A DNA stretch of 64,000 nucleotides. Origin: Martelella mediterranea. GTDB taxonomy: Bacteria > Pseudomonadota > Alphaproteobacteria > Rhizobiales > Rhizobiaceae. Location of the stretch: NCBI RefSeq assembly GCF_004342225.1, contig NZ_SMAR01000007.1:62001-126000 (forward strand), given 5' to 3'. Below, in pieces: positions 1,919 to 62,622 of this stretch (its first letter is position 1; every line of letters begins with the position of its first letter). The position numbers were made by a program, and so were the translations under genes. The notes beneath the pieces were generated by a model. It was not told the origin of the DNA. It saw only the letters and a list, made by a program, of their open reading frames with translations, and did not search any database.

Positions 1919-2929
1919 TCAGGCCTTGTCAGGGGCCTTGAAGGGGACCTTGTCGGGTGCTGTGCCTGATCCAAAACGAAGACGGTTCAGCAGCGTATCA
2001 GCATAAAGGGGCGCATCCGGCGCTTTACCATATTTAAGCTGAACCACCTTGTATCCCTCATCCTTCAGCCGGTTCAGCAAAGGTCCGATCGCTTTTGCAG
2101 TCCGTCGTTGCAGGTCGTGCATCAGGATGATGCCGCCGCCATGCTGCTCCAGCCCCAGCATAATGCGGGATACGAGGCGGTTTGTGTCGGCAGGCATATA
2201 GTCGAGCGAGTCGATATCAACGCCGACGGGGATATAGTCACGCTCAAAAAGCGCCTGATCGAGTTTTTCATTTTCGGAAAGATAGGGAAACCGGAAGAAG
2301 TGGGTCTTCGTGCCGGTCGCCTGATCGACCACGAAGGCTCCGTGATCAATATCTGCAAGCGCTTTCTCGAGAGGCAGCGTGACCAGGTTTGGGTGCGAAT
2401 AGGTATGCGAACCGATTGTGTGCCCCTCGGCCACCACGCGGGCGGCGACCTCCGGATGATAATGCGCCATTTCCCCGACCATGAAAAACAGCCCCTTTAC
2501 ACCGTGCGCCTTCATCGCATCCAGAACAGCTGGCGTATTATGCGGCACCGGCCCATCATCAAAACTCAACACCACTTCTTTGGGATAAAGCTGAATGTTC
2601 TGCGTCTGATCCAGATAAATCGTACGGCCAGCAAGCGGAGAGAGCGGCTTTCCCGATGCAGGATCAAAGGCAATTGTATGCACTTTTGCGGAAGAATCCA
2701 TTTGAGGGGCGATATGTGAATGGATGGATTCAAGCTGTGCTATATCTTCTCTCTCCGTCGAGCCCGTGATCATCGTGCTCACCGGATCTGCAACCTGCTG
2801 AATGGCCATCTGCCGCTTGTTATCGACAAGTGCCGTTTTATAGCTGGCGCCATCTCGCTCCCCGGTGGATGCACAAGCTGTCAAAGCCATCATCATAGTG
2901 GCCAGAAGCGCTGGAACGGGACGCAGCAT
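1919..2929 (-). CDS. Polysaccharide deacetylase (NodB domain) lipoprotein
   Basis: 336 residues. The N-terminus is a lipoprotein signal peptide with lipobox LTAC at about residues 16-19, so the protein is probably anchored in the envelope. The NodB homology domain (carbohydrate esterase family 4) follows: VVLSFDDGP (about 119-127, catalytic and metal Asp), SHTYSH (about 173-178, metal His pair), FFRFPY (about 211-216) and LMHD (about 271-274). The family removes N- or O-acetyl groups from polysaccharides such as peptidoglycan or chitin-like polymers; the substrate is unknown. It stands alone between leuB and the glycerate kinase, with no strong Shine-Dalgarno before ATG 2929. Confidence 0.85.
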   Translation of the reverse strand: MLRPVPALLATMMMALTACASTGERDGASYKTALVDNKRQMAIQQVADPVSTMITGSTEREDIAQLESIHSHIAPQMDSSAKVHTIAFDPASGKPLSPLAGRTIYLDQTQNIQLYPKEVVLSFDDGPVPHNTPAVLDAMKAHGVKGLFFMVGEMAHYHPEVAARVVAEGHTIGSHTYSHPNLVTLPLEKALADIDHGAFVVDQATGTKTHFFRFPYLSENEKLDQALFERDYIPVGVDIDSLDYMPADTNRLVSRIMLGLEQHGGGIILMHDLQRRTAKAIGPLLNRLKDEGYKVVQLKYGKAPDAPLYADTLLNRLRFGSGTAPDKVPFKAPDKA

Positions 2930-3074
2930 ATTTGATCCATTTCAGGTCAGAGCAAGCGACGAGCGGGCCTGGAACCGCCCGCCGGGATACTCACCGAAAA
3001 TGTGATAATATGGTTACCAACCAGTAAACACAGGCTGTTTCAGCACTTACTTTTTTCAATTTCTAAGTGCATCA

Positions 3075-4352
3075 TCAGTTTGCTGGAAGAACAAGTATCG
3101 CCCTGAAATCATTGACATTCGTCAATGTTGGACCGGTAATGACCTGATCGTCAAGGGCTTCAAAAAAACCATGCCCGTCATTATTGTCGAGTGAAGCCTG
3201 AGGGTTGATGCCAAGGACAACTGCGCGTTCCAGCGTATCCGGTGTGATGATCGCACCGGCAATCTCTTCAATCCCGTCGACACCATCGGTATCACCCGCA
3301 AGCGCATAAACTCCGGAAAGTCCGTGAAGCTGGACTGCAAGTGACAGCAAAAACTCCACATTGCGGCCGCCGCGGCCATTGCCCCTCAGCGTCACGCTGG
3401 TTTCGCCACCTGAAAGCACAAGAGCCGGTGCGGCAAGTGGCGCACCATGATGCACAACCGACCCGGCAATTCCTGCATGAACAATGCCAACCTCACGCGC
3501 TTCACCTTCAATTGTATCGCCCAGAACAAGGGTTGGAAGCCCCACCGCCTCGGCATAAGCAGAAGCGGCTGCAAGCGACTGATAAGGTGTTGCGATGATA
3601 TGATTTTCCGTTCGCGCCAGACGCGGATCTTCCGGAGATATGCATTCAGCGTCCGGCTTATCGAGATGCGCCGCAACATGTGGCGGCACGTCGATTTTAT
3701 AGCGCTTCAAAATGGCTTTGGCATCCGCACGCGTCGTCGTTTCCCCAACGGTCGGACCAGAGGCGATGACGGCGGGATCGTCACCGGGAACATCTGAAAT
3801 CAGAAGTGCGTGACAGCGCGCCGGGTGGATGGCTGCCGCCAGCCTGCCGCCTTTGACAGCGGAGAGATGCTTGCGCACACAGTTCATTTCATCGATGGAG
3901 GCGCCGCAGCGCAACAGGGCCTTGTTCAACGCGATCTTGTCATCCAGCGTCAAACCTTCTGGCGGAAGTGCCAGCAAGGCCGAACCGCCACCGGAGATCA
4001 GAACGATCACCAGATCATCTTCTGAAAGCCCCTCAACCATCTGCATGATACGCCGCGCAGCCATTTCACCTGCGGCATCGGGGACCGGATGCGAAGCCTC
4101 GACGATTTCGATGCGCGAGCATGGCGCCGAATGGCCGTAACGCGTGACCACCAGCCCTTCAAGCGGCCCGCTCCAGCTGGTTTCCAGCGCTTCCGCCATC
4201 CGTGCCGAGCCCTTGCCCGCGCCGATTACAATCGTTCGGCCTTTTGGCGGGGCCGGCAGGTATTTCGCGACCTGCTCCATCGGGTCGGCTGCCGCGACCG
4301 CAACATCAAATAGCTGCCGCAGAAAAGCTGTCGGTTCGTCTCTGAATTGCAT
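3075..4352 (-). CDS. Glycerate 2-kinase (DUF4147/MOFRL family)
   Basis: 425 residues, the normal length of the GckA/TtuD family, which phosphorylates D-glycerate to 2-phosphoglycerate with ATP in the serine-glyoxylate or tartronate route. The N-terminal DUF4147 domain contains VIGAGKGSARMAEALE (about 42-57) and the loop LISGGGSALL (about 118-127). The C-terminal MOFRL domain contains GNGRGGRNVEFLLSLA and AGDTDGVDG. The start ATG 4352 is preceded by GGGGAACGGAA. It is divergent from mfpsA with a 236-base shared promoter region. Mannosylfructose synthesis does not use glycerate, so I see no proven functional link. Confidence 0.9.
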   Translation of the reverse strand: MQFRDEPTAFLRQLFDVAVAAADPMEQVAKYLPAPPKGRTIVIGAGKGSARMAEALETSWSGPLEGLVVTRYGHSAPCSRIEIVEASHPVPDAAGEMAARRIMQMVEGLSEDDLVIVLISGGGSALLALPPEGLTLDDKIALNKALLRCGASIDEMNCVRKHLSAVKGGRLAAAIHPARCHALLISDVPGDDPAVIASGPTVGETTTRADAKAILKRYKIDVPPHVAAHLDKPDAECISPEDPRLARTENHIIATPYQSLAAASAYAEAVGLPTLVLGDTIEGEAREVGIVHAGIAGSVVHHGAPLAAPALVLSGGETSVTLRGNGRGGRNVEFLLSLAVQLHGLSGVYALAGDTDGVDGIEEIAGAIITPDTLERAVVLGINPQASLDNNDGHGFFEALDDQVITGPTLTNVNDFRAILVLPAN

Positions 4353-4588
4353 TTCCGTTCCCCGGCCGTATGATGATCAGTGCAAATCTTTCATAATCAT
4401 CCGGCCTACTCAAGCCGGATCGGAACCATTTTGCGCGAAAAGCGTTATTGGAACGCGGGACACGCGCCCGGCACTCCCTACGATCAGGAGTTGCTGCGAC
4501 CTTTAGAACAAAAAGATTTGTCGCTGCAGAGCGCAGTGCTGCCATGGCGCCTCGCCGTTCCGCGACTTGCAAGGAAGGAATGATCATA

Positions 4589-5926
4589 ATGGTTGAAACA
4601 AACGAGTCCGATAGGTTTCCCAGTATCGCTCTTGTTTCCACACACGGATATGTTGCGGCAGATCCGCCACTTGGCGCTGCAGATACTGGCGGCCAGGTCG
4701 TCTACATTCTCGAACTTTCCAAGAAACTCGCCCAACTCGGCTTTTCTGTCGATATTTACACGCGCCGATTTGAAGATCAGCCGGAAATCGATGAAGTCGA
4801 TGAGCGGGTGCGGGTCATCCGTATCCCCTGCGGCGGCAAGGACTTTATTCCCAAGGAATATCTCTACAAACATCTGCTCGAGTGGAGCGAAAATGCCCTG
4901 CGCTACATGCGCGACCATCATCTGAATTACAGCTTCATCAACTCGCATTACTGGGACGCCGGCTATGCCGGTCTCAGGCTGGCCGAGGCCCTCTCGATTC
5001 CGCACCTTCACACGCCGCACTCCCTCGGTCTCTGGAAAAAACGGACCATGGAGACCGATTATCCGGACCAGAAAGAGCAGTTTGAGAAGGATTTCAACTT
5101 CACGGAAAGGATCAAGCACGAAAACAAGATCTATCGTGCATGCGATTCCGTGATTGCAACCACGCCTATCCAGGTCGATATGCTGGTTGAAGATTATGGT
5201 ATTCGCGAAGATCGTGTTTACATGATTCCGCCTGGTTATGATGACAACCGTTTTTATCCGGTCTCAGGGGCCAGCCGGCAGATGCTTCGCGAGCACTTCG
5301 GTTTCAAGGGAAAAACGGTTCTCTCGCTTGGCCGCCTTGCGACCAACAAGGGCTATGACCTTCTGATCGATGCCTTTTCTGTCATGGTTGAACGTGTTCC
5401 CGACGCGGAACTGCATCTCGCCGTCGGTGGCGAAGACATGGACGAGCTTGAAACCCGGATCATGAACGAGCTGAAAGAGCAGGTCAAAGAGCTTGGTCTG
5501 GAGGAGAAGGTTCATTTCTCCGGCTATGTTTCCGACGAAGATCTTCCCGATATCTACCGGGCAGCCGATATGTTCGTACTTTCCAGCCGTTACGAACCCT
5601 TCGGCATGACCGCTATTGAGGCCATGGCATCGGGCACACCGACGGTCGTCACCACCAATGGTGGACTCTATCGTGCTATCAGTTTCGGGCGCCATGCTCT
5701 TTTTGCCGATACATTCGACAAGTATGATCTCGGTATCATCATGATGAAGCCGTTCAAGCATCAGCGGCTGTATAATCGTCTGGCACGCATGGGCGCACAC
5801 AAGGCGCGCAGCCTGTTTACATGGACCGGCATCGCCCAGCAGATGATCTCGCTCGTCGAAGGCCGGCCGATGCGTCAGTCACTACAGGACAGTGACTGGG
5901 CCGAGCCCTGGAATGACGGCGACTAA
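4589..5926 (+). CDS. mfpsA: Mannosylfructose-phosphate synthase
   Basis: GT4-family glycosyltransferase of 445 residues that transfers mannose from GDP-mannose to fructose 6-phosphate, the first step to the compatible solute mannosylfructose. From memory of the Agrobacterium MfpsA protein it is similar along its length: ADTGGQVVYILELSKKL near the N-terminus, TRRFEDQPE, INSHYWDAGYAG, LHTPHSLGLWKK, IPPGYDDNRFYPVS, the donor-site motif EPFGMTAIEAMASGTPTV and the C-terminus DWAEPWNDGD. The family is related to sucrose-phosphate synthase, the main alternative. ATG 4589 was chosen because AAGGAAGGAA lies 8 bases upstream. mfppB follows after 3 bases. Confidence 0.9.
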   Translation: MVETNESDRFPSIALVSTHGYVAADPPLGAADTGGQVVYILELSKKLAQLGFSVDIYTRRFEDQPEIDEVDERVRVIRIPCGGKDFIPKEYLYKHLLEWSENALRYMRDHHLNYSFINSHYWDAGYAGLRLAEALSIPHLHTPHSLGLWKKRTMETDYPDQKEQFEKDFNFTERIKHENKIYRACDSVIATTPIQVDMLVEDYGIREDRVYMIPPGYDDNRFYPVSGASRQMLREHFGFKGKTVLSLGRLATNKGYDLLIDAFSVMVERVPDAELHLAVGGEDMDELETRIMNELKEQVKELGLEEKVHFSGYVSDEDLPDIYRAADMFVLSSRYEPFGMTAIEAMASGTPTVVTTNGGLYRAISFGRHALFADTFDKYDLGIIMMKPFKHQRLYNRLARMGAHKARSLFTWTGIAQQMISLVEGRPMRQSLQDSDWAEPWNDGD

Positions 5927-5929
5927 GTC

Positions 5930-6676
5930 ATGACAATAAAGATGTTCTCTTCCGATCTCGACGGTACACTTGTCGGCGACAACGCAGCAACGGCCCGCTT
6001 CAAGCAGGCCTATGAAGCCATACCGGAACCCAATCGTCCGTTGCTTGTCTATAACAGCGGTCGGCTGGTCGACGATATACTGGAACTGATTCCTGCGGTT
6101 GGGCTGCCCGAACCGGACTTTCTGATCGGTGGCGTTGGGACCATGCTGCACGATCACAAAGGAAGCGGTCAGACGCACGGCTTTAGCGATTTTCTGGGCG
6201 CTTCTTTTAACCCGGCACGCGTGGCCCACATTCTGGAAGATGTGCCGGACATATCACGCCAGCCGGAGCGTTATCAGCACGGGTTCAAGTCGAGCTGGTA
6301 TCTGGAACACGCGACCGATGGACGTCTGCGGGATATCGAGCGGACGCTTGCCAATGAGGGGCTGGATATCAAGCTGGTCTATTCCTCAAACCGCGATCTG
6401 GATGTGCTGCCGCGCGTCGCGGACAAAGGCGCAGCATTGTCGTGGCTTTGCGGCAGGCTGGGGATCGCGCATAACGAGGTCGTCGTGGCTGGCGATACCG
6501 GCAATGACAGCGCGATGTTCATGGTTGAGGGAGTGAATGGCATCATTCCCGCCAACGGTTTTGATGAGCTTCGCCGGATCGCCCGCAGCAATGGCAATGG
6601 CAAAGTCTACGAGGCAAAGCGGGAAATCGCCGATGGCGTGATCGAAGGCTTGCGCCATTTCAACGTTCCGCTCTGA
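5930..6676 (+). CDS. mfppB: Mannosylfructose-phosphate phosphatase
   Basis: 248-residue HAD-superfamily phosphatase of the sucrose-phosphatase type, exactly the length expected for MfppB. It hydrolyses mannosylfructose 6-phosphate to free mannosylfructose. Motif I is SSDLDGTLVGD (nucleophile and acid/base Asp at about residues 9 and 11), motif II is YNSGR (about 42-46), and motif IV is VVVAGDTGNDSAMF (about 185-198). The start lies 3 bases after the mfpsA stop with no separate Shine-Dalgarno, which points to translational coupling. A strong hairpin follows the stop codon. Confidence 0.9.
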   Translation: MTIKMFSSDLDGTLVGDNAATARFKQAYEAIPEPNRPLLVYNSGRLVDDILELIPAVGLPEPDFLIGGVGTMLHDHKGSGQTHGFSDFLGASFNPARVAHILEDVPDISRQPERYQHGFKSSWYLEHATDGRLRDIERTLANEGLDIKLVYSSNRDLDVLPRVADKGAALSWLCGRLGIAHNEVVVAGDTGNDSAMFMVEGVNGIIPANGFDELRRIARSNGNGKVYEAKREIADGVIEGLRHFNVPL

Positions 6677-6682
6677 GAGACC

Positions 6683-6712
6683 ATGCCGGGCAGCGCTATC
6701 GCTGTCCGGCAT
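6683..6712 (+). terminator. Terminator of the mfpsA-mfppB operon
   Basis: A 13-bp stem (ATGCCGGGCAGCG / CGCTGTCCGGCAT, one G-U pair) with a CTAT loop starts 6 bases after the mfppB stop codon. Only a short ATTT follows, so termination may be incomplete. Confidence 0.7.
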
Positions 6713-6965
6713 ATTTGGACCGGTCCACCTCAATCCCTGATGGATGAAGGACAATCATCAAAACTATCGACTTTGATTTCCTTACACGAGCCAGAGCAAT
6801 CATAAATTCAGATCTTGTCGAAACCGTCGTCGTTCTCCCCACTGAACTCGCAGGTCCAAGCCAGCTTATCCTGCGCCCAGTCTTCAAGCGATGGTCTTTC
6901 AACCTGAGGCCCCGACGGTCCGGCTGGCGCAAATGACATCAGCGCAACCAGGAATGCCGACAATA
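6713..6965. other. Intergenic stretch between mfppB and leuD terminator
   Basis: No convincing gene. On the minus strand a 53-codon frame ends with TGA at 6808-6810. It would start at TTG 6969 and has a signal-peptide-like N-terminus (LLLSAFLVALMSFAPAGPSG) and an acidic C-terminal part with WTC and ENDDGFDK. It has no ATG near its start, no Shine-Dalgarno, and its 5' end runs into the leuD terminator. It may be a relic of a small secreted protein. Confidence 0.3.
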
Positions 6966-6996
6966 ACAAAAGAGCCAGTCGCTGGACGACTGGCCC
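6966..6996 (-). terminator. Rho-independent terminator of leuD
   Basis: On the minus strand an 8-bp perfect stem GCCAGTCG / CGACTGGC with a TCCAG loop is followed by CTCTTTTGTT. It lies about 35 bases past the leuD stop codon. Confidence 0.85.
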
Positions 6997-7030
6997 TTAT
7001 GAAGGAAAAACATATGCCGTCGCCTGGCAA

Positions 7031-7636
7031 TCAGGCCCAGGGACGCTCAGCCGCAAGCTTTTCTTCGTAGGAAGCGATATTGTCAGCCTTCTCAAGCGTC
7101 AGAGAAATATCGTCAAGACCATTCAGGAGGCAGTGGCGGCGGAAACCATCAACCTCAAACTTCACCGAACCGCCATCAGGCCCGGTGATCTCCTGATTTT
7201 CCAGATCGACTGTGACAACTGCGTTCGAGCCACGCTCGGCGTCATCCATCAGCTTTTCCAGCTCTTCCGGCGACACAATGATCGGCAGAATGCCGTTCTT
7301 GAAGCAGTTATTGTAGAAAATATCGGCGAAGCTCGTGGAAATAACACAGCGAATGCCGAAGTCAGCCAGTGCCCACGGTGCATGCTCACGCGAAGAGCCG
7401 CAGCCAAAGTTATCACCGGCGACAAGAATCTTAGCATCGCGGTAGGCAGACTTGTTCAGAACAAAATCCGGATTTTCGGAACCATCAACATTATAACGGG
7501 CTTCGGCGAAAAGCCCCTTGCCAAGACCTGTGCGCTTAATCGTCTTCAGATAATCCTTCGGGATAATCATGTCGGTGTCGACATTCACAACCGGCAGCGG
7601 CGCAGCAACGCCCGTCAACTTGACGAATTTTTCCAT
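7031..7636 (-). CDS. leuD: 3-isopropylmalate dehydratase small subunit LeuD
   Basis: 201 residues, the full length of the proteobacterial small subunit. It pairs with LeuC, which holds the iron-sulfur cluster, to isomerise 2-isopropylmalate to 3-isopropylmalate. Visible landmarks are [16 protein letters not shown] near the N-terminus, [16 protein letters not shown] (about 74-89, the substrate-binding aconitase-swivel motif) and [19 protein letters not shown] 7636 has GGGAC upstream. It appears to be monocistronic, with its own terminator. Confidence 0.97.
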
Positions 7637-54019: not shown

Positions 54020-54109
54020 GGACAGGTGGCCGAGCGGTCGAAGGCGCACGCCTGGAACGCGTGTATACGGGAAACCGTATCGAGGGTTCGAATCCCTCTC
54101 TGTCCGCCA
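54020..54109 (+). tRNA. tRNA-Ser (anticodon GGA), CCA encoded
   Basis: 90 bases including CCA. The acceptor stem GGACAGG pairs with TCTGTCC (one G-U). The anticodon stem CACGC/GCGTG encloses the loop CTGGAAC, giving anticodon GGA (codons UCC/UCU). The long variable arm (TATACGG/CCGTATC) identifies a serine tRNA, and the T arm GAGGGTTCGAATCCCTC is perfect. Prophage genes begin just downstream, so its 3' part is the likely attachment site. Confidence 0.95.
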
Positions 54110-54940: not shown

Positions 54941-55054
54941 TTATCTCCTATGATGGTTGATGACCGGACCATCGCTCTCGTGGCCGTCGAAGACGAGCAA
55001 TCCACGTGCTTCCGTCGGCCGGACGTGAATCAATTTTGCTGCTCTTCGCTTCAT
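54941..55054 (-). CDS. 37-residue ORF coupled to the methylase gene
   Basis: The ATG overlaps the methylase stop codon (ATGA) and its TAA lies inside the Shine-Dalgarno of the next gene, so both ends are coupled. The peptide is basic at the start (MKRRAAKLIHVRP) and ends DGPVINHHRR. Its position is the best evidence that it is translated. Confidence 0.45.
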   Translation of the reverse strand: MKRRAAKLIHVRPTEARGLLVFDGHESDGPVINHHRR

Positions 55055-55872
55055 TCTGCCGCCATGCGCAGGGTCTTTGCTGGCGTTATGATCACCTCCT
55101 TCACGCCCTTCCCGTTGCCGTCCGATATCGAATAGGTGCAGTCGACCTCCTCGATGTCGAAACGGGCGAAGGTTTCAAAGACGCCTTGAACCGCGTTCAA
55201 AGACAGAATGAAGGTGCCTTGAAGTCCTTCGAGAACATCTGCCATCTGTTCGAAATCATCCCGGCCGAAGACGCCGGTTCCGTAGTCGGTCTCATTGCCC
55301 CAATATGGCGGGTCGAGATAAAACAGCATGCCCGGCCGATCATAGCGGCGAATGAACTCCTGCCACGGCAGGCACTCGATCACGACACCGGCAAGACGCT
55401 CGTGGATATCCTCCAGCGTTGAGGCAAGCTTGGTCAGATTGAACCGGGCGCTGGTGGTTTTGCTGACGCCGAAATTCCGGCCAGCCACCTTGCCGCCGAA
55501 GGCCAGACGCTGAAGATAAAGAAAGCGGGCCGATCGCTCCAGATCGGTGAGCGTCGTTGGGTCCGTCTTCATCAGCCGTTCGAATTCGCGGCGGCCGGAG
55601 ATCTGGAAGCGAAGCGTATCCATGAACTGCGGAAAGTGGCGCTGCAGGATGCGGAAGAAGTTGGCAACATCACCACTGATATCGTTGATCACTTCTGTTT
55701 TCGGCTGATGGTCCCGGCGCAGAAACACCCCGCCCATGCCCACAAACGGTTCTGCGTAGCCATCATGATCGATCGCGTTGATCTTGGCGATGACGGTTTT
55801 CGAGAGGATGCGCTTGCCACCGATATAACCGGCCGCAGGCGTGACCGGCGTAACCGGCTGCTGATTTACCAT
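55051..55872 (-). CDS. Phage DNA adenine methylase (Dam/D12 class)
   Basis: 273 residues. N-terminal SAM motif AGYIGGKRIL (a variant of KWAGGK), YAEPFVGMGGVFLRR, VINDISGDVANFFRILQRH, and the catalytic DPPY in MLFYLDPPYWGNETDYG. It methylates adenine N6, probably in GATC-like sites, and may protect phage DNA from restriction or set phage timing. It occupies the place of ogr in P2. The start ATG 55872 has only a weak GAGA site. 143 bases separate it from gene D. Confidence 0.92.
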   Translation of the reverse strand: MVNQQPVTPVTPAAGYIGGKRILSKTVIAKINAIDHDGYAEPFVGMGGVFLRRDHQPKTEVINDISGDVANFFRILQRHFPQFMDTLRFQISGRREFERLMKTDPTTLTDLERSARFLYLQRLAFGGKVAGRNFGVSKTTSARFNLTKLASTLEDIHERLAGVVIECLPWQEFIRRYDRPGMLFYLDPPYWGNETDYGTGVFGRDDFEQMADVLEGLQGTFILSLNAVQGVFETFARFDIEEVDCTYSISDGNGKGVKEVIITPAKTLRMAAE

Positions 55873-55986
55873 TTCAAATATCTCACGACTCAGTCACAAA
55901 GCCGCTGCCCGCTTTTCGCGGGTACGGGTGCGACGGTTATCGTGTGTTGCTGTCGGGCGGGTTCGGACCCCCATCCAGTCCCCGCC

Positions 55987-56004
55987 GCCAGGGCTTGCCC
56001 TGGC
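55987..56004 (-). terminator. Hairpin between gene D and the methylase
   Basis: GCCAGGGC-TT-GCCCTGGC, a perfect 8-bp inverted repeat 12 bases past the D stop, without a T tract. It may end the tail operon in part. Confidence 0.45.
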
Positions 56005-56015
56005 CACCTGTCACA

Positions 56016-56987
56016 TCATGCTTTCTTGCCCTCCTTTGTTGCCTCCAGACTGATCTGGACTGAGTAGCCATTGGAGAACTGGTGACGCACCGATTTGACG
56101 TACCAGAGGCCAGCAGCTTCCTGGCGGAAACCGGTGGCATTGATCGTGGTGCCTGCCAGAATATCGGTGCGGCCTGCCATGGTGATCGAGCCGGAGCCGG
56201 TTTTGGCCGCCTGCCGGTTGGCCTCGGATCGCGCGGCGGCTTCGGCTTCCTCTTTTGTGGCATAGGTGGTTCGAAGCGTCTTCGAAGGGCCTTCAAGGCC
56301 GGTTTCAGCGGTCGTTGTCTGAACCGTGTTGGTTTCCCGATCGTACCAGCCCGCCTTCGCATTGCCGTAGGTCGGGCGCGGCTCGATGGAAAATGACCAG
56401 CTTGCGCATTCCGCTTTGTCGATCGTGATCGGGGCGAGAATGCCGGGTTCTAAAAATAAGAACTTTCCATCCTTGATGGAAAATTGCGCGCCGGTGCGCC
56501 GGGCCAGACGGCTTAAAAAATCGGCCGTGCTTTGATTGGTCCGCGCGATATAGGGAATGACAAGCTGGTCGAAGTTTTCCGAGACCTTGGCATCATAACC
56601 GTGCCGATCGGCAAGCTGGCGGACGATATCGCCTGCGCTCATATCGTCGAAATGCTCGTCGGCCGGTTCCTTCACCGCCTTGCGCATATCGGTCGAGCGG
56701 CCGGACAGCGTGATAAACTCGCCACCGCTGCCGCCCCTGATCTTCGGCTTTTCGATTTCAAACAGGCCCATCCTGGCCGCACCGCCCGGCCGGTAGCCGA
56801 AATCGAGCTGAAGCTTCGCACCGGCCGGTGGAATGGCAACGGCATTGTCGGCATCGTCAAAGGTCAGTTCGCAGGTGTCGGCGGTGTCTTGCGTATTATC
56901 GACAATGGAAGCCGAGACCAGGCGATTGTAAAAACCATCCCGGACGGCTGAACCGTTGACCTTCGCTTCGATAAAGGGCGTGGCCAT
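56016..56987 (-). CDS. D: Phage late control protein D (tail)
   Basis: 323 residues of the P2 gpD/T4 gp27-like family, which forms the tail hub beneath the tube. TPFIEAKVNGSAVRDGFYNRLVSASIVDN, IRGGSGGEFITLSGRSTDMRKAVKEP, RTNQSTADFLSRLARRTGAQFSIKDGKFLFLEPG and the Ala/Glu-rich AKTGSGSITMAGRTDILAGTTI blocks fit. Its start overlaps the X stop (TGATG). Confidence 0.92.
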   Translation of the reverse strand: MATPFIEAKVNGSAVRDGFYNRLVSASIVDNTQDTADTCELTFDDADNAVAIPPAGAKLQLDFGYRPGGAARMGLFEIEKPKIRGGSGGEFITLSGRSTDMRKAVKEPADEHFDDMSAGDIVRQLADRHGYDAKVSENFDQLVIPYIARTNQSTADFLSRLARRTGAQFSIKDGKFLFLEPGILAPITIDKAECASWSFSIEPRPTYGNAKAGWYDRETNTVQTTTAETGLEGPSKTLRTTYATKEEAEAAARSEANRQAAKTGSGSITMAGRTDILAGTTINATGFRQEAAGLWYVKSVRHQFSNGYSVQISLEATKEGKKA

Positions 56988-57250
56988 CAGTCCCAGAGCC
57001 TCACGGTTTCAGCGGGCTTTGCCGCAGTCTCGAACTCCGGCAGGTGAACAACCGTGCCGATCGGCAAAACCGAACCGAGCGCGGCAAGGCCGGGATTGAT
57101 GGCGAGCGTTGCCTCGACATAGCCGTAAAGCAGCCCGGCCTGTTTGCGGTCGCCAAGGCGAGCATAGGCGAATTCAAAGCAGACCAGATCAAGGCTGGCA
57201 TCTTCCTTGTTCACTTTGATGGTGGTTGCTGGCAGCTTCGTCATGATCAC
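56987..57250 (-). CDS. X: Phage tail protein X
   Basis: 87 residues. P2 gpX-like protein with a LysM-type look: DLVCFEFAYARLGDRKQAGLLYGYVEATLAINPGLAALGSVLPIGTVVHLP. It is needed for tail baseplate assembly. It overlaps gene U by 4 bases and gene D by 1 base. In P2 itself X lies among the earlier tail/lysis genes; the U-X-D order is that of many other P2-like phages. Confidence 0.88.
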   Translation of the reverse strand: MIMTKLPATTIKVNKEDASLDLVCFEFAYARLGDRKQAGLLYGYVEATLAINPGLAALGSVLPIGTVVHLPEFETAAKPAETVRLWD

Positions 57251-57687
57251 ATCCCGAACAGGCCGACCGGTTTTCCACCGGCCTCATGGCTTGGTGCAAG
57301 CTCGATTGCATACTGGATGCGGCGGCCTTTGCCGTCCGGCCCGATATAGGTTTGCGTGTCCTCAATAGCCTTGATCATCACAAGCCCGAAGACTTCCGCT
57401 GCCGTGCCGGTACCAACGGCCCAGCCGGTAAACGAAAGCGGGCGACCGGCCATCTGGCTGGCGCGCAGCTTCTCGTATTCCGCGCGGTCATCGAACTCTT
57501 CGGGAAACAGCAGGCCGGATATGGTGATGGTGCCGCGCTTGTGGCCGGTAAACTGTGTGCCAGCGCGCCCGCCGAAACGGGCGATTTCGGCCAGCTCGGT
57601 TTCGGTGCGCCTACGGATCGACTGGAAATTCAGACTGGTGACCTCAAACGTGTGCGGCCCAAGGCCCAGAAGCGGCATGCCCATCAA
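57247..57687 (-). CDS. U: Phage tail protein U
   Basis: 146 residues of the P2 gpU family. MGMPLLGLGPHTFEVTSLNFQSIRRRTETELAEIARFGGRAGTQFTGHKRGTITISGLLFPEEF is the conserved N-terminal part. Baseplate/tail terminator role. It overlaps the tape-measure stop by 4 bases. Confidence 0.9.
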   Translation of the reverse strand: MMGMPLLGLGPHTFEVTSLNFQSIRRRTETELAEIARFGGRAGTQFTGHKRGTITISGLLFPEEFDDRAEYEKLRASQMAGRPLSFTGWAVGTGTAAEVFGLVMIKAIEDTQTYIGPDGKGRRIQYAIELAPSHEAGGKPVGLFGM

Positions 57688-60005
57688 TCATCTCCATCGT
57701 AAAACGTACCGGATTGCGCGGAAGACAGCCCGCCTCCGGAGGCGCGTGCATTGGCGGTTGCCGTGCGCAGTTCACCGGCGGCGGCAGTGATGGCGCTCGC
57801 CGCATCCTGCATGGCATTGCCTGCGGCCTTGCCGCCGTCTTCAACGGCCTTGCCGGAGCGCGATGCGCTTTGTTCCAGCTCATCGCCAGCGCCGGTCATC
57901 CAGTCCCATGATTTGCCAAGCCAGCTTTTTTCATCTGCCGTTGACGGCTGGCCGATCGGCGGACCGATATCGGCATAGGCTGAAGATGCACCGTTATCAT
58001 TGGCCGGTTCTGCAGGCGGTTCGTCATCGTCACCGCCGCCGCCAAGCAACCGGTCGAGCCATGCCGGTTTTTTGAAGACGCCGGAAAGATCGATTGTACC
58101 GATCTTCTCGCGGATCAAGGCGGGCCAGTTCGTGAGCCATTCCCAGATGAAGGCGGCTCCGGCCTTGATGCCGTTGGCGATCTTTTCGCCGATCTCGCGA
58201 CCGGCATTCTCATAGTTGGCCTTTTCTTCATCGGTGAGCTTTTCCTGTTTGAAAAGCCCTTTGAGCCAGGCAAACGCCCCGTCGAGCAGTTCCTTCGCGC
58301 CATCAATGATGCCGGAGAAGTCGAAGAAATCGCGGACGGCCTGTTTTGCGCCGGATGTATCAATGCCGGTGATGGCGGAGAACTTGTCCAGCAGCCAGTC
58401 GATCTTGCCGCCGACAAAATCGAGCGCGCCGCCGAGCAGGTCTTTCAGCGGCCCGAAAAAGCCCGAGAGAAACGAACTAACGTGATCCCAGTATTTCCAC
58501 ACCAACAGGGCGGCAGCCGCGATGGCCGCGCCGACGGCCCAGACTGGCGCTGAAATCCCCGCCAGAACTGTGACCAGCCCGCTGCCAAGTGTACCAAGCA
58601 GGCCAAAGGAACCGGCCAGCATGCGGCCAGCACCGGCAATCAACCGCCAGCCGGAGGCAACATTCTTGCCCGACTTATCGAATTTCAGGAAGGCACCTGT
58701 CAGTCCCAGCAGCGGCATGCGCAAGCCTGCAACGGCAAAGCTGGCCAGTCGTGTGGCAATATTGAAGGCCAGAAGCCCGGCAACGGCCATGACAATTGTG
58801 CGGGTTAATTCCGGATTGGCCTGCGTCCAGGCTAAAACCTGATCGATAAGCGGGCGAACCTCCTGCACGATCTCCAGAACCACCGGAAGCAGAACGTTGC
58901 CGATCGTGATCGCCATGGCCGAAAGCTGGTTCTTCAGCATTGCGAACTGCGCGGTGAATTCTTCCGATTGCTTGCGGTAGGCTTCGTCGACCGCATTCGC
59001 GCCGTTGCGCATGTCATCAAGCGTGGACGTGAACACCTCGTTTTGCGAGCCGGTCAGCCCAATAACGGCGTTATAGGCCTCTTGTGAACCTAACAGCTTC
59101 TGAAGCGCCGCATCATTTCCACCGAGGGCATCACGAATGCGGCTAAACGCCTGCACCATGCCACCGGATTGATCGACCAGGTCTTTGAAATTCTTGGCTC
59201 CAAGTTCCTTGAAAACGGAACGGGTCTCTTTGGTATCCTTGGTCAAGCCGCTGATAGCTGCACGGATTTGTGTATGAACCTGAGCAGCTTTCATGCCAGT
59301 TGTCGTCATCGCTGCGACAGAAGCCAGATATTCGTCGACACCGATGCCTGCGTTAGCAACCGTTCCAGCAACATCACCGAAGCCCTGAGCAAGACCGTCA
59401 ATCGTGGTCTTGCCGTTTTTGACGGTCTTGAAGATCACATCATAGATGCGGTTCTGCTCTTCACCTTCGAGGTTGAACGCGTTGATCGACGAGGTCACCA
59501 GATCGACCGCTGATTTCGTTGAACCGAGACCGGCAACACCCAGCCTTGCTGAGCCTTCCAGAACCCTGAATTGGTCAGCGGCGGATATTCCGGCCGAACG
59601 CACATCATAAAGCGCGCCGGTCAGGTCATTCAGCTTCACCGGCGTGCGGGCAGCGATTTCGAGCACCTTGCTCTTCATCGCGTCCATGCTTTCCACGGAC
59701 GTATCAATCAGGGTTGAGACATTGGCCATCTGGGCAGAGAAGTCAGCCGCCATCATGATTGGCGAAACGATGATAGCGCCCATGGCGGCAGCGCCGAGAA
59801 GGCGCTGCCGCGCCTTCTGCAGATTGGCCTCGGCCTTCTGGGTGGCCGCTTCCAGATTGTCGACGGAAAAGCGCGTGGCAATGGCCCCGCCGACATTTTT
59901 CTTCATCCGCGACGCGCCGTCTGCAACACGCTTAAAGCCCTCGCGCAGACGCTGCGCGGGGCCGTTGAACTTATCCACCAGGCGAATGACAAGTGACGCA
60001 TCCAT
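57684..60005 (-). CDS. T: Phage tail tape measure protein T
   Basis: 773 residues; sets tail length and is injected or released at infection. N-terminal helical part with DLTGALYDVRSAGISAADQFRVLEGSARLGVAGLGSTKSAVDLV (TP901-type core domain), coiled-coil stretches, hydrophobic helices around 430-520 (MAVAGLLAFNIATRLASFAV, VLAGISAPVWAVGAAIAAAALLVW) and a Gly/Ser/Ala-rich end. The start ATG 60005 comes 1 base after the E' stop codon. Confidence 0.92.
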   Translation of the reverse strand: MDASLVIRLVDKFNGPAQRLREGFKRVADGASRMKKNVGGAIATRFSVDNLEAATQKAEANLQKARQRLLGAAAMGAIIVSPIMMAADFSAQMANVSTLIDTSVESMDAMKSKVLEIAARTPVKLNDLTGALYDVRSAGISAADQFRVLEGSARLGVAGLGSTKSAVDLVTSSINAFNLEGEEQNRIYDVIFKTVKNGKTTIDGLAQGFGDVAGTVANAGIGVDEYLASVAAMTTTGMKAAQVHTQIRAAISGLTKDTKETRSVFKELGAKNFKDLVDQSGGMVQAFSRIRDALGGNDAALQKLLGSQEAYNAVIGLTGSQNEVFTSTLDDMRNGANAVDEAYRKQSEEFTAQFAMLKNQLSAMAITIGNVLLPVVLEIVQEVRPLIDQVLAWTQANPELTRTIVMAVAGLLAFNIATRLASFAVAGLRMPLLGLTGAFLKFDKSGKNVASGWRLIAGAGRMLAGSFGLLGTLGSGLVTVLAGISAPVWAVGAAIAAAALLVWKYWDHVSSFLSGFFGPLKDLLGGALDFVGGKIDWLLDKFSAITGIDTSGAKQAVRDFFDFSGIIDGAKELLDGAFAWLKGLFKQEKLTDEEKANYENAGREIGEKIANGIKAGAAFIWEWLTNWPALIREKIGTIDLSGVFKKPAWLDRLLGGGGDDDEPPAEPANDNGASSAYADIGPPIGQPSTADEKSWLGKSWDWMTGAGDELEQSASRSGKAVEDGGKAAGNAMQDAASAITAAAGELRTATANARASGGGLSSAQSGTFYDGDD

Positions 60006-60006
60006 G

Positions 60007-60171
60007 TCAGTTCTCCTGTTGTCTCAGGCTAGCAAGGCGTTGGATTTCGGCGCGGTAGCGAACCGCCTCATCGAAAGGCAGTTCGTCGATGTCTTCCGGC
60101 GACCAGCGGAAGAAAAAGGCCAGGTCAGCGGCTATTTCGAAGGCGCGGCTGACAGGAGCGCCGGAAAAAAA
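60007..60171 (-). CDS. E': Tail chaperone E' frame, reached by -1 frameshift from E
   Basis: In the -1 frame relative to E, a run without its own start codon encodes the GpE pattern DLAFFFRWSPEDIDELPFDEAVRYRAEIQRL and stops at TGA 60007-60009. The slip site is a run of seven T on the minus strand at 60171-60165, read GAT TTT TTT in frame E. After a one-base backward slip the ribosome adds 52 residues, giving a fusion of about 172 residues. P2 makes its E+E' chaperone this way. Confidence 0.85.
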   Translation of the reverse strand, partial: FFSGAPVSRAFEIAADLAFFFRWSPEDIDELPFDEAVRYRAEIQRLASLRQQEN

Positions 60172-60524
60172 TCGACAAACGCCTCAAACAGTTTCGGCAA
60201 ATCGTTCCAGTCGAGGCCGTCGATGAAATCGGCGGTTTCGCCGCACATATCGGCAAGAACGGCTGTTGCCTCGTCCAGGACGTCAGCCTTCATCATCGCT
60301 CCGGAAATTTCGGTGGCGAGCTTTGCCTTGTCGATTTCGGTCTCGCCATTGGCCATCAGCGCCTTGACCAGCTCCGGGCCGACCAGCACGGCCAGACGCT
60401 TGGCATGGCGCAGCTTCGGCCGCTTGATGGTGATGCTGTCACGCGTGGCGGGTTTATCGTCTTCGGTGGTAAACTCGACCGGGACAGAAAGCGGAATGGT
60501 GACTTTGGACTTCAGCGGGGTCAT
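60132..60524 (-). CDS. E: Phage tail assembly chaperone E
   Basis: 130 residues of the P2 gpE/tail-assembly-chaperone family: PLSVPVEFTTEDDKPATRDSITIKRPKLRHAKRLAVL and the acidic helical C-terminal half AVLADMCGETADFIDGLDWNDLPKLFEAFVDFFPALL. GGAAATG lies before ATG 60524. Its last ten codons overlap the E' frame, and a T7 run near codon 120 is the frameshift site. It helps load tail tube protein on the tape measure. Confidence 0.9.
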   Translation of the reverse strand: MTPLKSKVTIPLSVPVEFTTEDDKPATRDSITIKRPKLRHAKRLAVLVGPELVKALMANGETEIDKAKLATEISGAMMKADVLDEATAVLADMCGETADFIDGLDWNDLPKLFEAFVDFFPALLSAAPSK

Positions 60525-60561
60525 TGCGACATTTCCTTTGTTTACGTTAGCGTTGTTGTCT

Positions 60562-60746
60562 TGTCCTCACGCTGCCATGGCTTCGCCATTTCGCTCCGGA
60601 CGGGGCCTCGCATTGGCTCGGACGCCCGCTTGGGCTTGCGGCTTCGCCGGTTCTTTTCCCTCGCACCGTCTTGCCGTATGGCACCCCGAAGCCTGCAAGG
60701 TTTCGCAAGCGCGACCGCGCGTCGGCCACGGTTGGCCGTGAGGACA
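60562..60746. repeat. Inverted-repeat-bounded element between FII and E
   Basis: TGTCCTCACG at 60562-60571 and CGTGAGGACA at 60737-60746 are perfect 10-bp inverted ends of a roughly 185-bp insert. Inside are further small palindromes: TGGCTTCGCCA (60578-60588), CGGCTTCGCCG (60639-60649), GGCCA/TGGCC (60724-60737). In P2 the FII-E gap is short, so this looks inserted: a non-autonomous palindromic element or a structured RNA. No convincing coding frame; a 71-codon Arg/Lys-rich frame is not supported. Confidence 0.55.
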
Positions 60747-60753
60747 GAGCTAA

Positions 60754-61281
60754 TCAACTAAACAAAAACGAACGGCGATGGCTGTTCATCTGGTCGAAAT
60801 TCTGAATGTCCCAGCCACCGGTTTTGAGCGAGAAACGGTGCAGCACCTGACCGTTCCAGTATTCGGTGTAGGTCCAGATCGACTTGACCTCGTAGTCATA
60901 GCCGTTGACCTTGCCGCCCTGCATCGCGGCCGGACCGATCTTGGTCAGGCGGCCGAGAACGTCTATGGCGTGTTCATGTTCTTCGCCGGTCTCTTCATCG
61001 ACCACCAGTGTCTTGCCGGTCCAGGTGCGCCGCGTGCCGGGTTCACCGGCGAACATGGCATTAATGCCGGGCGCAACGCCTTTTACCTTAGCGCCAAGGG
61101 TCAGCGCCTTGGTGCCAAGGCCAGCAATCTCGACTTCGCCATCGGCCCCGCCTGGCTGGAAGGTCTCGACCGTCTCTTCAAGCGTGGGCAGCGCCAGCTC
61201 TTCGATCGACAGCGCCAGATTGGCGTCGTCATCGGCGACCAGCGTGAAGCCGCGCATAATCCGTGGTGCTATGACAGCCAT
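60754..61281 (-). CDS. FII: Phage major tail tube protein FII
   Basis: 175 residues of the P2 FII family: MAVIAPRIMRGFTLVADDDANLALSIEELALPTLEETVETFQPGGADGEVEIAGLG, then ALTLGAKVKGVAP and VNGYDYEVKSIWTYTEYWNGQVLHRFSLKTGGWDIQNFD. It polymerises into the inner tube of the contractile tail. 72 bases after the sheath gene. Confidence 0.92.
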   Translation of the reverse strand: MAVIAPRIMRGFTLVADDDANLALSIEELALPTLEETVETFQPGGADGEVEIAGLGTKALTLGAKVKGVAPGINAMFAGEPGTRRTWTGKTLVVDEETGEEHEHAIDVLGRLTKIGPAAMQGGKVNGYDYEVKSIWTYTEYWNGQVLHRFSLKTGGWDIQNFDQMNSHRRSFLFS

Positions 61282-61353: not shown

Positions 61354-62622
61354 CTAATTCGTGAGGTCGGAAATCGGGGTTTCGAACGAGACGCTCATCA
61401 TCCGCTGCACGTCGGCGGCCAGATTGTCGAAATAGGCCTCGTTGCGGCGCGATCCGAAAATCAGGTCTTCCAGCGGCGGGGTTTCCTCCGCATCGAATTC
61501 GACGCGCAGCTTGCCAAGCCGCAGGTTCGCATTCGGATTGGCGTCGCGGTCCCAGAAGACATTGCCGCCGAGAATGGCCGTGGCGTTTTTCAGCTCATCA
61601 AGGAAGGCCTGAACCGAACGCATGACGGCCAGAATATGCTGGGCGGTCAGGTTTTCGTCATTGGCCCAGCGGAAGCCATCAATCAGCGTTTTCTCGATTG
61701 CCGCGCGGGTGCGCACGACATTAACGAAACCCCAGAGATTATCCTCGGAGGTGGTGCGGTTGCCCCAGAGAATGCGGCCATTGGCGGAAAAGTTTCCGCC
61801 CACGCCCTGGACGAGCCGGGACGGAATGAAAGTGGCAATGCCCGCCGCGTTGAGCTTGTTGGCCTCGTGGTCGATCTCACCGGAAAAATATGTGATCGGC
61901 CGGGCCGTGCCGAGAATGCCCAGGACATCCTGATTGGAGGGCGACCAGTAAGGCCCGCCCTTCTGCTTGTCGCGCTTGACGAACATGGACGCGACAAAGC
62001 CGGACGCCGGTTTGGCAATGATATCGGTGCCCGAAAGCACCCGCACGAAGGGATCGACCAGATACATGTAGCGGGATGAAAAATCGGCGCGGTAGGCAAG
62101 CGACGCATCGGCATCCGGCCCACCGGTATCGGCAATGCCGATGGCTTTCAGCTTGTTGGCGATCTGCTCGATGGCATCGGCGACCGGGTTCTTGGCATCT
62201 TCAATGCGGCCTGCCGTATAGCCCGGCGCGATGATCAGATCCGGCTCGACGCCGACATGACCACGCGCATAGGAAAGCGCATGAAGCCCGGTCATGGCCG
62301 CAGCCGAGCCGACCATATTCGCCATGGTCGCATCGGCATCGACGCCTTCTTCAACGCGGGAAAAGACAAGCTGGGCTTCAATGCCCTGAGATTTGACGGC
62401 ATTGACGATATCGAGCGCGGTTCCGCTTGCGCCAAGGGCTGCAACCTTTTCCGTCTCGTGGGTGTAGAAAGCAACCGGCTCGTCGGGCGGAAAGATATCC
62501 GTATCGGCTTCAGGCGCGGTCACGCATGCGCCAATGGATGAAGTATCGGCGACCTCAAGCGAGCGGGCTTCGGATGAAGCATCGACAACGCGGGTGCCGT
62601 GATTGAATGCGGCTGTCGCCAT
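61354..62622 (-). CDS. FI: Phage tail sheath protein FI
   Basis: 422 residues, contractile sheath subunit. AAFNHGTRVVDASS, VADTSSIGACVTAPEAD, PDLIIAPGYTAGRI, AYRADFSSRYMYLVDPFV, IGILGTARPITYFSGEIDHEAN and ILWGNRTTSEDNLWGFVNVVRTRAAIEKTLIDGFRW are family blocks. It is the first gene after a strong terminator, so it probably starts its own transcription unit, as the F operon does in P2. Confidence 0.94.
   Translation of the reverse strand: MATAAFNHGTRVVDASSEARSLEVADTSSIGACVTAPEADTDIFPPDEPVAFYTHETEKVAALGASGTALDIVNAVKSQGIEAQLVFSRVEEGVDADATMANMVGSAAAMTGLHALSYARGHVGVEPDLIIAPGYTAGRIEDAKNPVADAIEQIANKLKAIGIADTGGPDADASLAYRADFSSRYMYLVDPFVRVLSGTDIIAKPASGFVASMFVKRDKQKGGPYWSPSNQDVLGILGTARPITYFSGEIDHEANKLNAAGIATFIPSRLVQGVGGNFSANGRILWGNRTTSEDNLWGFVNVVRTRAAIEKTLIDGFRWANDENLTAQHILAVMRSVQAFLDELKNATAILGGNVFWDRDANPNANLRLGKLRVEFDAEETPPLEDLIFGSRRNEAYFDNLAADVQRMMSVSFETPISDLTN

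Follow-up and report, generated by a model that had tools for sequence, protein, structure and literature searches.

A predicted P2-type -1 frameshift in the tail assembly chaperone gene of a Martelella mediterranea prophage

Background

The -1 frameshift of phage P2 takes place at a rate of approximately 10%, and the slip site of phage lambda is G_GGA_AAG. The P2 record (NC_001895) annotates E+E' as a -1 frameshift product together with its site, the heptamer T_TTT_TTG, and the E/E' frameshift is conserved and established in P2-like phages (PMC3931495, PMC3091744; papers given by PMC number are cited for the parts available to us). Smp131 and xanthomonad P2-like prophages, likened here by description, carry a T7 at the E/E' place in the forms T7G and T7C (PMC3931495). 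Phage lambda, likened in the same way, makes a short and a long tail chaperone, G and GT, through a low-level -1 shift, and it is the analogue for the coating of the tape measure by the short chaperone and the recruitment of tube protein by the long one (PMC5009743). In E. coli dnaX a slip heptamer is combined with an upstream Shine-Dalgarno-like stimulator (PMC3711429).

The nearest named relative of the locus described here is gp24 of the Ochrobactrum phage POA1180 (NC_070931), a phage that forms particles (PMC5492332). Its E is 44% identical to the one in the window and carries the same TTTTTTTCCGGC, its E' is 52% identical, and a term search of the main text of PMC5492332 found neither "frameshift" nor "slippery".

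We report that a prophage in a window of 64,000 nucleotides from Martelella mediterranea (NZ_SMAR01000007.1, positions 62,001 to 126,000; "the window" refers to this whole stretch of analysed DNA) very probably produces a small helper protein for tail assembly in two forms from one gene, as judged from its sequence. The mechanism is already known from P2, and the window holds a diverged representative of the P2 E/E+E' type. The two are alike in the place within the tail operon, the -1 direction, the T-run heptamer and the homology of E' as seen by profile; they differ in the length of E (130 aa in the window, 91 in P2), in the end of the heptamer (TTT and TTG, respectively) and in the number of E' codons past the slip (52 and 57, respectively).

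Results and discussion

Gene E, the slip site and the E' frame

The elements of the locus are the following.

60132..60524, minus strand: gene E, tail assembly chaperone (zero-frame product), 130 aa; PF10109, phrog_9738, phrog_166
60165..60171, minus strand: slippery heptamer T_TTT_TTT, followed by CCG; identical in five of the six E relatives used
60007..60165, minus strand: E', extending E in the -1 frame by 52 codons and a stop; PF06528 below cut-off, phrogs, profile match

In the zero frame of E the T7 is read as GA(T) TTT TTT CCG (60171-60165, minus strand), and the E stop, TAG, follows ten zero-frame codons past the T7. An in-phase X_XXY_YYZ heptamer thereby lies near the 3' end of E together with an open -1 frame, which extends between a TGA at 60186-60184 and a TGA at 60009-60007 (minus strand). 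Joining 120 residues of E to the 52 of E' gives a fusion of 172 residues. The first-pass annotation, made from the letters of the sequence, had placed the E frame of 130 codons (60524-60132, minus strand) exactly and the T7, as GAT TTT TTT in the phase for a -1 shift, correctly to the base; the fusion of about 172 residues and the E' frame without a start codon that it described are also what we find.

None of ATG, GTG and TTG occurs anywhere in the open -1 frame of E' (60186-60007), where ATA, CTG and ATC are the only weak start candidates. If E' were started independently from such a non-standard codon, with no frameshift, the ATA at 60135 and the CTG at 60123 would lie early enough, and a possible GUG has been noted for P2 (PMC3931495). 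We nevertheless consider this reading extremely improbable: the three usual start codons are missing not only here but also from the first 12 E' codons of 58 of the 68 T_TTT loci of the wider family described below, and a start of its own for E' would leave the conserved heptamer purposeless.

T7 runs as such are not over-represented in the window (8 found vs 11.8 expected). From these eight runs and approximately 16 permitted in-phase positions, our own arithmetic puts the chance of a T7 with this phase and place at about 1 in 1000 (0.001). The excess over chance is in the phase, place and conservation of the T7, not in the frequency of such runs.

Identity of E and E' and order of the tail genes

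The neighbouring tail genes are listed here.

61354..62622, minus strand: FI-type tail sheath protein; PF04984 (E 7.5e-10), PF17482 (E 3.9e-8)
60754..61281, minus strand: FII-type tail tube protein, upstream of E; PF04985 (E 8e-15)
57684..60005, minus strand: tape measure protein (T); PF10145 (E 1.5e-32), phrog_28 (E 4.7e-69)

The order sheath, tube, E/E' and tape measure is that of P2, with E between the tube and tape measure genes. The tape measure gene starts 1 base past the E' stop, and both in the window and in POA1180 E' ends directly before it.

E barely passes the Phage_TAC_7 family PF10109 (25.1 bits, cut-off 25, E 1.9e-5), and it also matches phrog_9738 (function unknown; E 5.9e-35) and phrog_166 (tail protein; E 6.3e-4). 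E' alone scored 17.7 bits against PF06528 (Phage_P2_GpE), which is under the curated cut-off of 23, and it matched phrog_1756 and phrog_6416 (tail) as well as phrog_10636 and phrog_11318 (unknown). A profile of five E' sequences, two relatives being left out, matched one built from seven P2-type E' sequences, the probability being 95.5% (E 1.6e-8, 35 columns). This comparison identifies E' as a distant homologue of its P2 counterpart (GpE), and it is the profile match, PF06528 alone being below its cut-off, that bears out the GpE-type assignment made in the first pass. For three of the five E' relatives scanned (G379 was outside the scan) there was no Pfam match at E values up to 1.

Conservation among the nearest relatives and in a second copy

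The six E relatives used were POA1180 and the loci of five genomes (G060, G086, G118, G379 and G793). They came from 397 genomes of the order (five matching, the window's own included), from 151 relatives (three matching, again with its own) and from a phage collection, in which one phage matched in two records. Comparing slip sites in homologues, a check proposed with the original observation, gave T_TTT_TTT at the same place in five of the six (POA1180, G793, G060, G086 and G118) and G_TTT_TTT in the sixth (G379), which has a -1 extension of 60 codons. All six carry a -1 extension; its length is 49-60 codons overall and 49-56 codons in the five with T_TTT_TTT.

At the protein level the E' frame is conserved. 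Across its first 40 codons, in five sequences (G118 and G379, with gaps in their E' alignments, were omitted), the -1 frame had a mean BLOSUM62 score of 1.69 and no stops, compared with 0.14 and five stops in frame 0 and 0.34 and seven stops in frame +1. Between the window and POA1180 the differences in E' at the three codon positions (19/16/30 over 53 codons) have the pattern of coding sequence read in the -1 frame. The tail of E past the slip is 25 codons in POA1180 and 10 in the window. The expectation that standard annotation would miss E' altogether holds for POA1180, the nearest named relative, whose record omits E'; it is for this record that the claim stands. Reading E' in POA1180 as we do here restores a probably essential tail protein that its annotation overlooked.

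A second copy of the tail region is present in the same assembly (contig C71, locus L016), where positions 2000-7242 are 92% identical to 54956-60195 of the window. The T7 is unchanged in it and E' is intact, with 2 differences in the last 189 bases (the end of E plus E'; 99%). An intact E' and T7 in a diverged copy argue against a sequencing error. An error of sequencing or assembly, or a decayed gene, might come to mind for a homopolymer in a draft assembly of 105 contigs, but the T7 is found not only in the C71 copy but also in the particle-forming POA1180 and in four further relatives, and such an origin of the two frames has next to no probability in our estimate. As to the copy itself, its sequence would fit either recombination or another, related prophage.

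Part of the tape measure gene is approximately 70-81% identical between the C71 copy and the window. Adjoining the copy, at 158-1525 of L016 (minus strand), is a 455-aa ORF that by eye resembles a reverse transcriptase whose C-terminal part is trypsin-like. Three loci were kept outside all counts: L006, which is the same prophage; L007, a viral contig with 35% over part of E and surroundings that by eye resemble a protein of ParB or methyltransferase type; and L008, a stretch resembling E' from a Deltaproteobacteria MAG, which was the sole confirmed match of the genome-contig scan.

The wider Phage_TAC_7 chaperone family

PF10109 was searched in 385 genomes of the class, 31 of which matched at E values up to 0.01; 41 of the 44 matches were used, leaving out a second domain match in the L036 frame, one in the L043 frame, and G607. 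In the phylum, 47 of 398 genomes matched at E values up to 1e-5, and 54 of the 60 matches were new and were used. Adding the six relatives and P2 to both sets made 102 rows, one of which is the window. They hold three pairs with the same place or identical sequence around the E stop; other rows are close relatives, and four rows of the class search score under the Phage_TAC_7 cut-off. T_TTT_TTN was preferred where several heptamers were possible, and otherwise the last one within 35 codons was taken.

In 90 of the 102 rows a -1 extension goes on for 20 codons or more beyond the stop of E. T_TTT_TTN was found in 68 rows (TTG 34, TTA 13, TTT 12 and TTC 9) and another X_XXY_YYZ heptamer in 14 (G_GGA_AAN 6, G_GGT_TTT 4, C_CCT_TTN 3 and C_CCG_GGA 1; G_GGA_AAG accounts for four of the G_GGA_AAN rows), the minor classes being less sure because a chance heptamer can be picked. 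Eight rows, G379 included, have an extension with no heptamer by this rule, and in 12 rows the -1 extension is missing; the slip arrangement is not universal among the 102 rows. In three of the 12 (L039, L041 and L046) it is the +1 frame that stays open, for 34-63 codons beyond the stop of E; these are candidates for another shift direction.

The heptamers also bear on how the frames would be joined. RNA polymerase could slip on the T7 and insert one U, so that the fusion would be read in frame from an altered transcript. The T7 is a homopolymer of seven, transcriptional slippage has been named as a possible reason for the avoidance of U7 (PMC4066793), and T runs longer than 8 have been cited for it (PMC3711429), a length of which the run in the window is two short. 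The same frame relation is, however, kept with T6G in P2, with G_GGA_AAG in four rows and with G_GGT_TTT in four, and heptamers without a long homopolymer favour ribosomal slippage by tandem tRNAs and oppose the transcriptional kind, which we hold to be very unlikely.

Candidate stimulatory signals

A downstream hairpin was tried as a stimulator and rejected: it starts 11 nt past the heptamer, and the energy over 60 nt was at the level of shuffled sequences (z -0.44, folding without pseudoknots). Among 32 loci folded downstream of the heptamer, four had z at or below -2. This null result agrees with PMC3091744, in which P2 and its Burkholderia relatives are reported to lack a hairpin; P2 and the window are alike in this respect, whereas dnaX has a downstream hairpin.

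On the upstream side the window has a Shine-Dalgarno-like word.

60182..60185, minus strand: GAGG, Shine-Dalgarno-like, possible stimulator 10 nt upstream of the heptamer; the signal is one of the group

It is a candidate counterpart of the dnaX stimulator, and its spacing of 10 nt compares with 9-14 nt for -1 shifts (PMC5009743). Taken alone the GAGG is not significant, since 54.5% of 200 synonymous resamplings were equal or better. The group was represented by 48 diverse members of the 68 T_TTT loci, L080 and L115 being kept among them although their -1 extension is not GpE-like by eye. Their mean best energy was -7.7 vs -5.9 under synonymous resampling, and 0/200 resamplings reached the real value. 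Complementarity to the 16S tail peaked in windows of 9 nt whose first base lies 12-19 nt ahead of the heptamer, and the excess sits approximately 10-16 bases upstream of the slip site; in 32 loci the anti-Shine-Dalgarno energy dipped in windows starting at -20 to -14, with pairing weaker than the null at -34 to -30. The excess was present at shifts of 0 and 2 codons (0/300 each) and had vanished at every one of the eight larger shifts (4 to 21 codons).

When the loci are grouped by origin, the excess is kept both in the class set of 18 loci, to which the window belongs, and in the phylum set of 24 (0/300 each), and the five nearest relatives together with P2 have no significant excess (55/300), which means that the window's own branch alone gives no support for a stimulator. 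Some excess was also seen with the reversed tail and with six scrambled ones (z -1.4 to -3.1), and plain base composition thus accounts for part of the signal. With 160 scrambled tails, 0/160 matched the excess of the real tail over its null and 17/160 matched its raw energy. Word counts were weak: 5-mers occurred in 16 of the 48 loci vs 11.6 expected (10/200 resamplings reach the count and 40/500 scrambles the z), 4-mers in 36 vs 30.0 and 6-mers in 7 vs 4.4.

We regard the upstream Shine-Dalgarno-like signal across the 48 loci as suggestive. Whether P2-family chaperone genes in phages across the Pseudomonadota would carry a selected stimulator 10-16 nt upstream that replaces the hairpin and sets the E:E+E' ratio is, in our judgement, an evenly balanced proposition; were the signal genuine, it would account for the function of these slip sites in the absence of a downstream structure. 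Shine-Dalgarno stimulators are known from dnaX and an estimated 56% of insertion sequences (PMC5009743), and a conserved one was reported in 3 of 13 clusters of insertion sequences and prophages (PMC4066793), and the general idea is therefore not new. In the parts available to us of PMC3711429, PMC4066793, PMC5009743 and PMC10885494 we found no statement of such a stimulator in the P2 family.

Proposed mechanism

We are confident, though short of certain, that the locus is an E/E+E' pair of tail assembly chaperones of P2 type, belonging to a contractile-tail prophage, with a -1 slip on T_TTT_TTT. The P2 slip between E and E+E', on which the first-pass annotation had modelled the locus, is annotated in the P2 record as a -1 site, and T_TTT_TTG lies at the corresponding place. 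We infer that most ribosomes would read E to its stop and yield the 130-aa protein. In a minority, tRNA-Phe in both the P and A sites on TTT TTT would move one base back on T_TTT_TTT with full pairing kept, continue with TCC GGC through the 52 codons of E' and yield the 172-aa protein, the first 120 residues being common to both products. By analogy with P2 and lambda, E would coat the tape measure and E+E' would recruit the tube protein. By causing a ribosomal pause, the GAGG that lies 10 nt upstream may increase the frequency of shifting, a possibility that only the family-wide signal suggests.

U_UUU_UUU falls within H_HHU_UUY, a class that ranks with the most efficient ones listed for E. 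coli (PMC4066793); A_AAA_AAG is far more shift-prone than U_UUU_UUU in the same organism, which is less favourable to the heptamer of the window (PMC5009743). On this mechanism the slip would have been retained, with a longer E, in a diverged prophage branch of the bacterial order.

Other features of the prophage region

Between the tube gene and E lies a G+C-rich stretch of 229 nt (60525-60753, minus strand). POA1180 is without this insert before E, and its gap there is 12 nt. No match was found to an Rfam family within the stretch, nor to the stretch in the phage collection; it was matched in 16 of 100 related genomes. Related pieces are present on contig C7 at 126418-126521, 132800-132960 and 138474-138523, directly before three other ORFs in that part of the contig, and within the stretch TGTCCTCACG near one end complements CGTGAGGACA near the other. 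Possibly the stretch is a short mobile repeat providing ribosome binding sites. Finally, a tRNA gene (54020-54106, plus strand) lies near the downstream end of the tail genes and is possibly the attachment site of the prophage.
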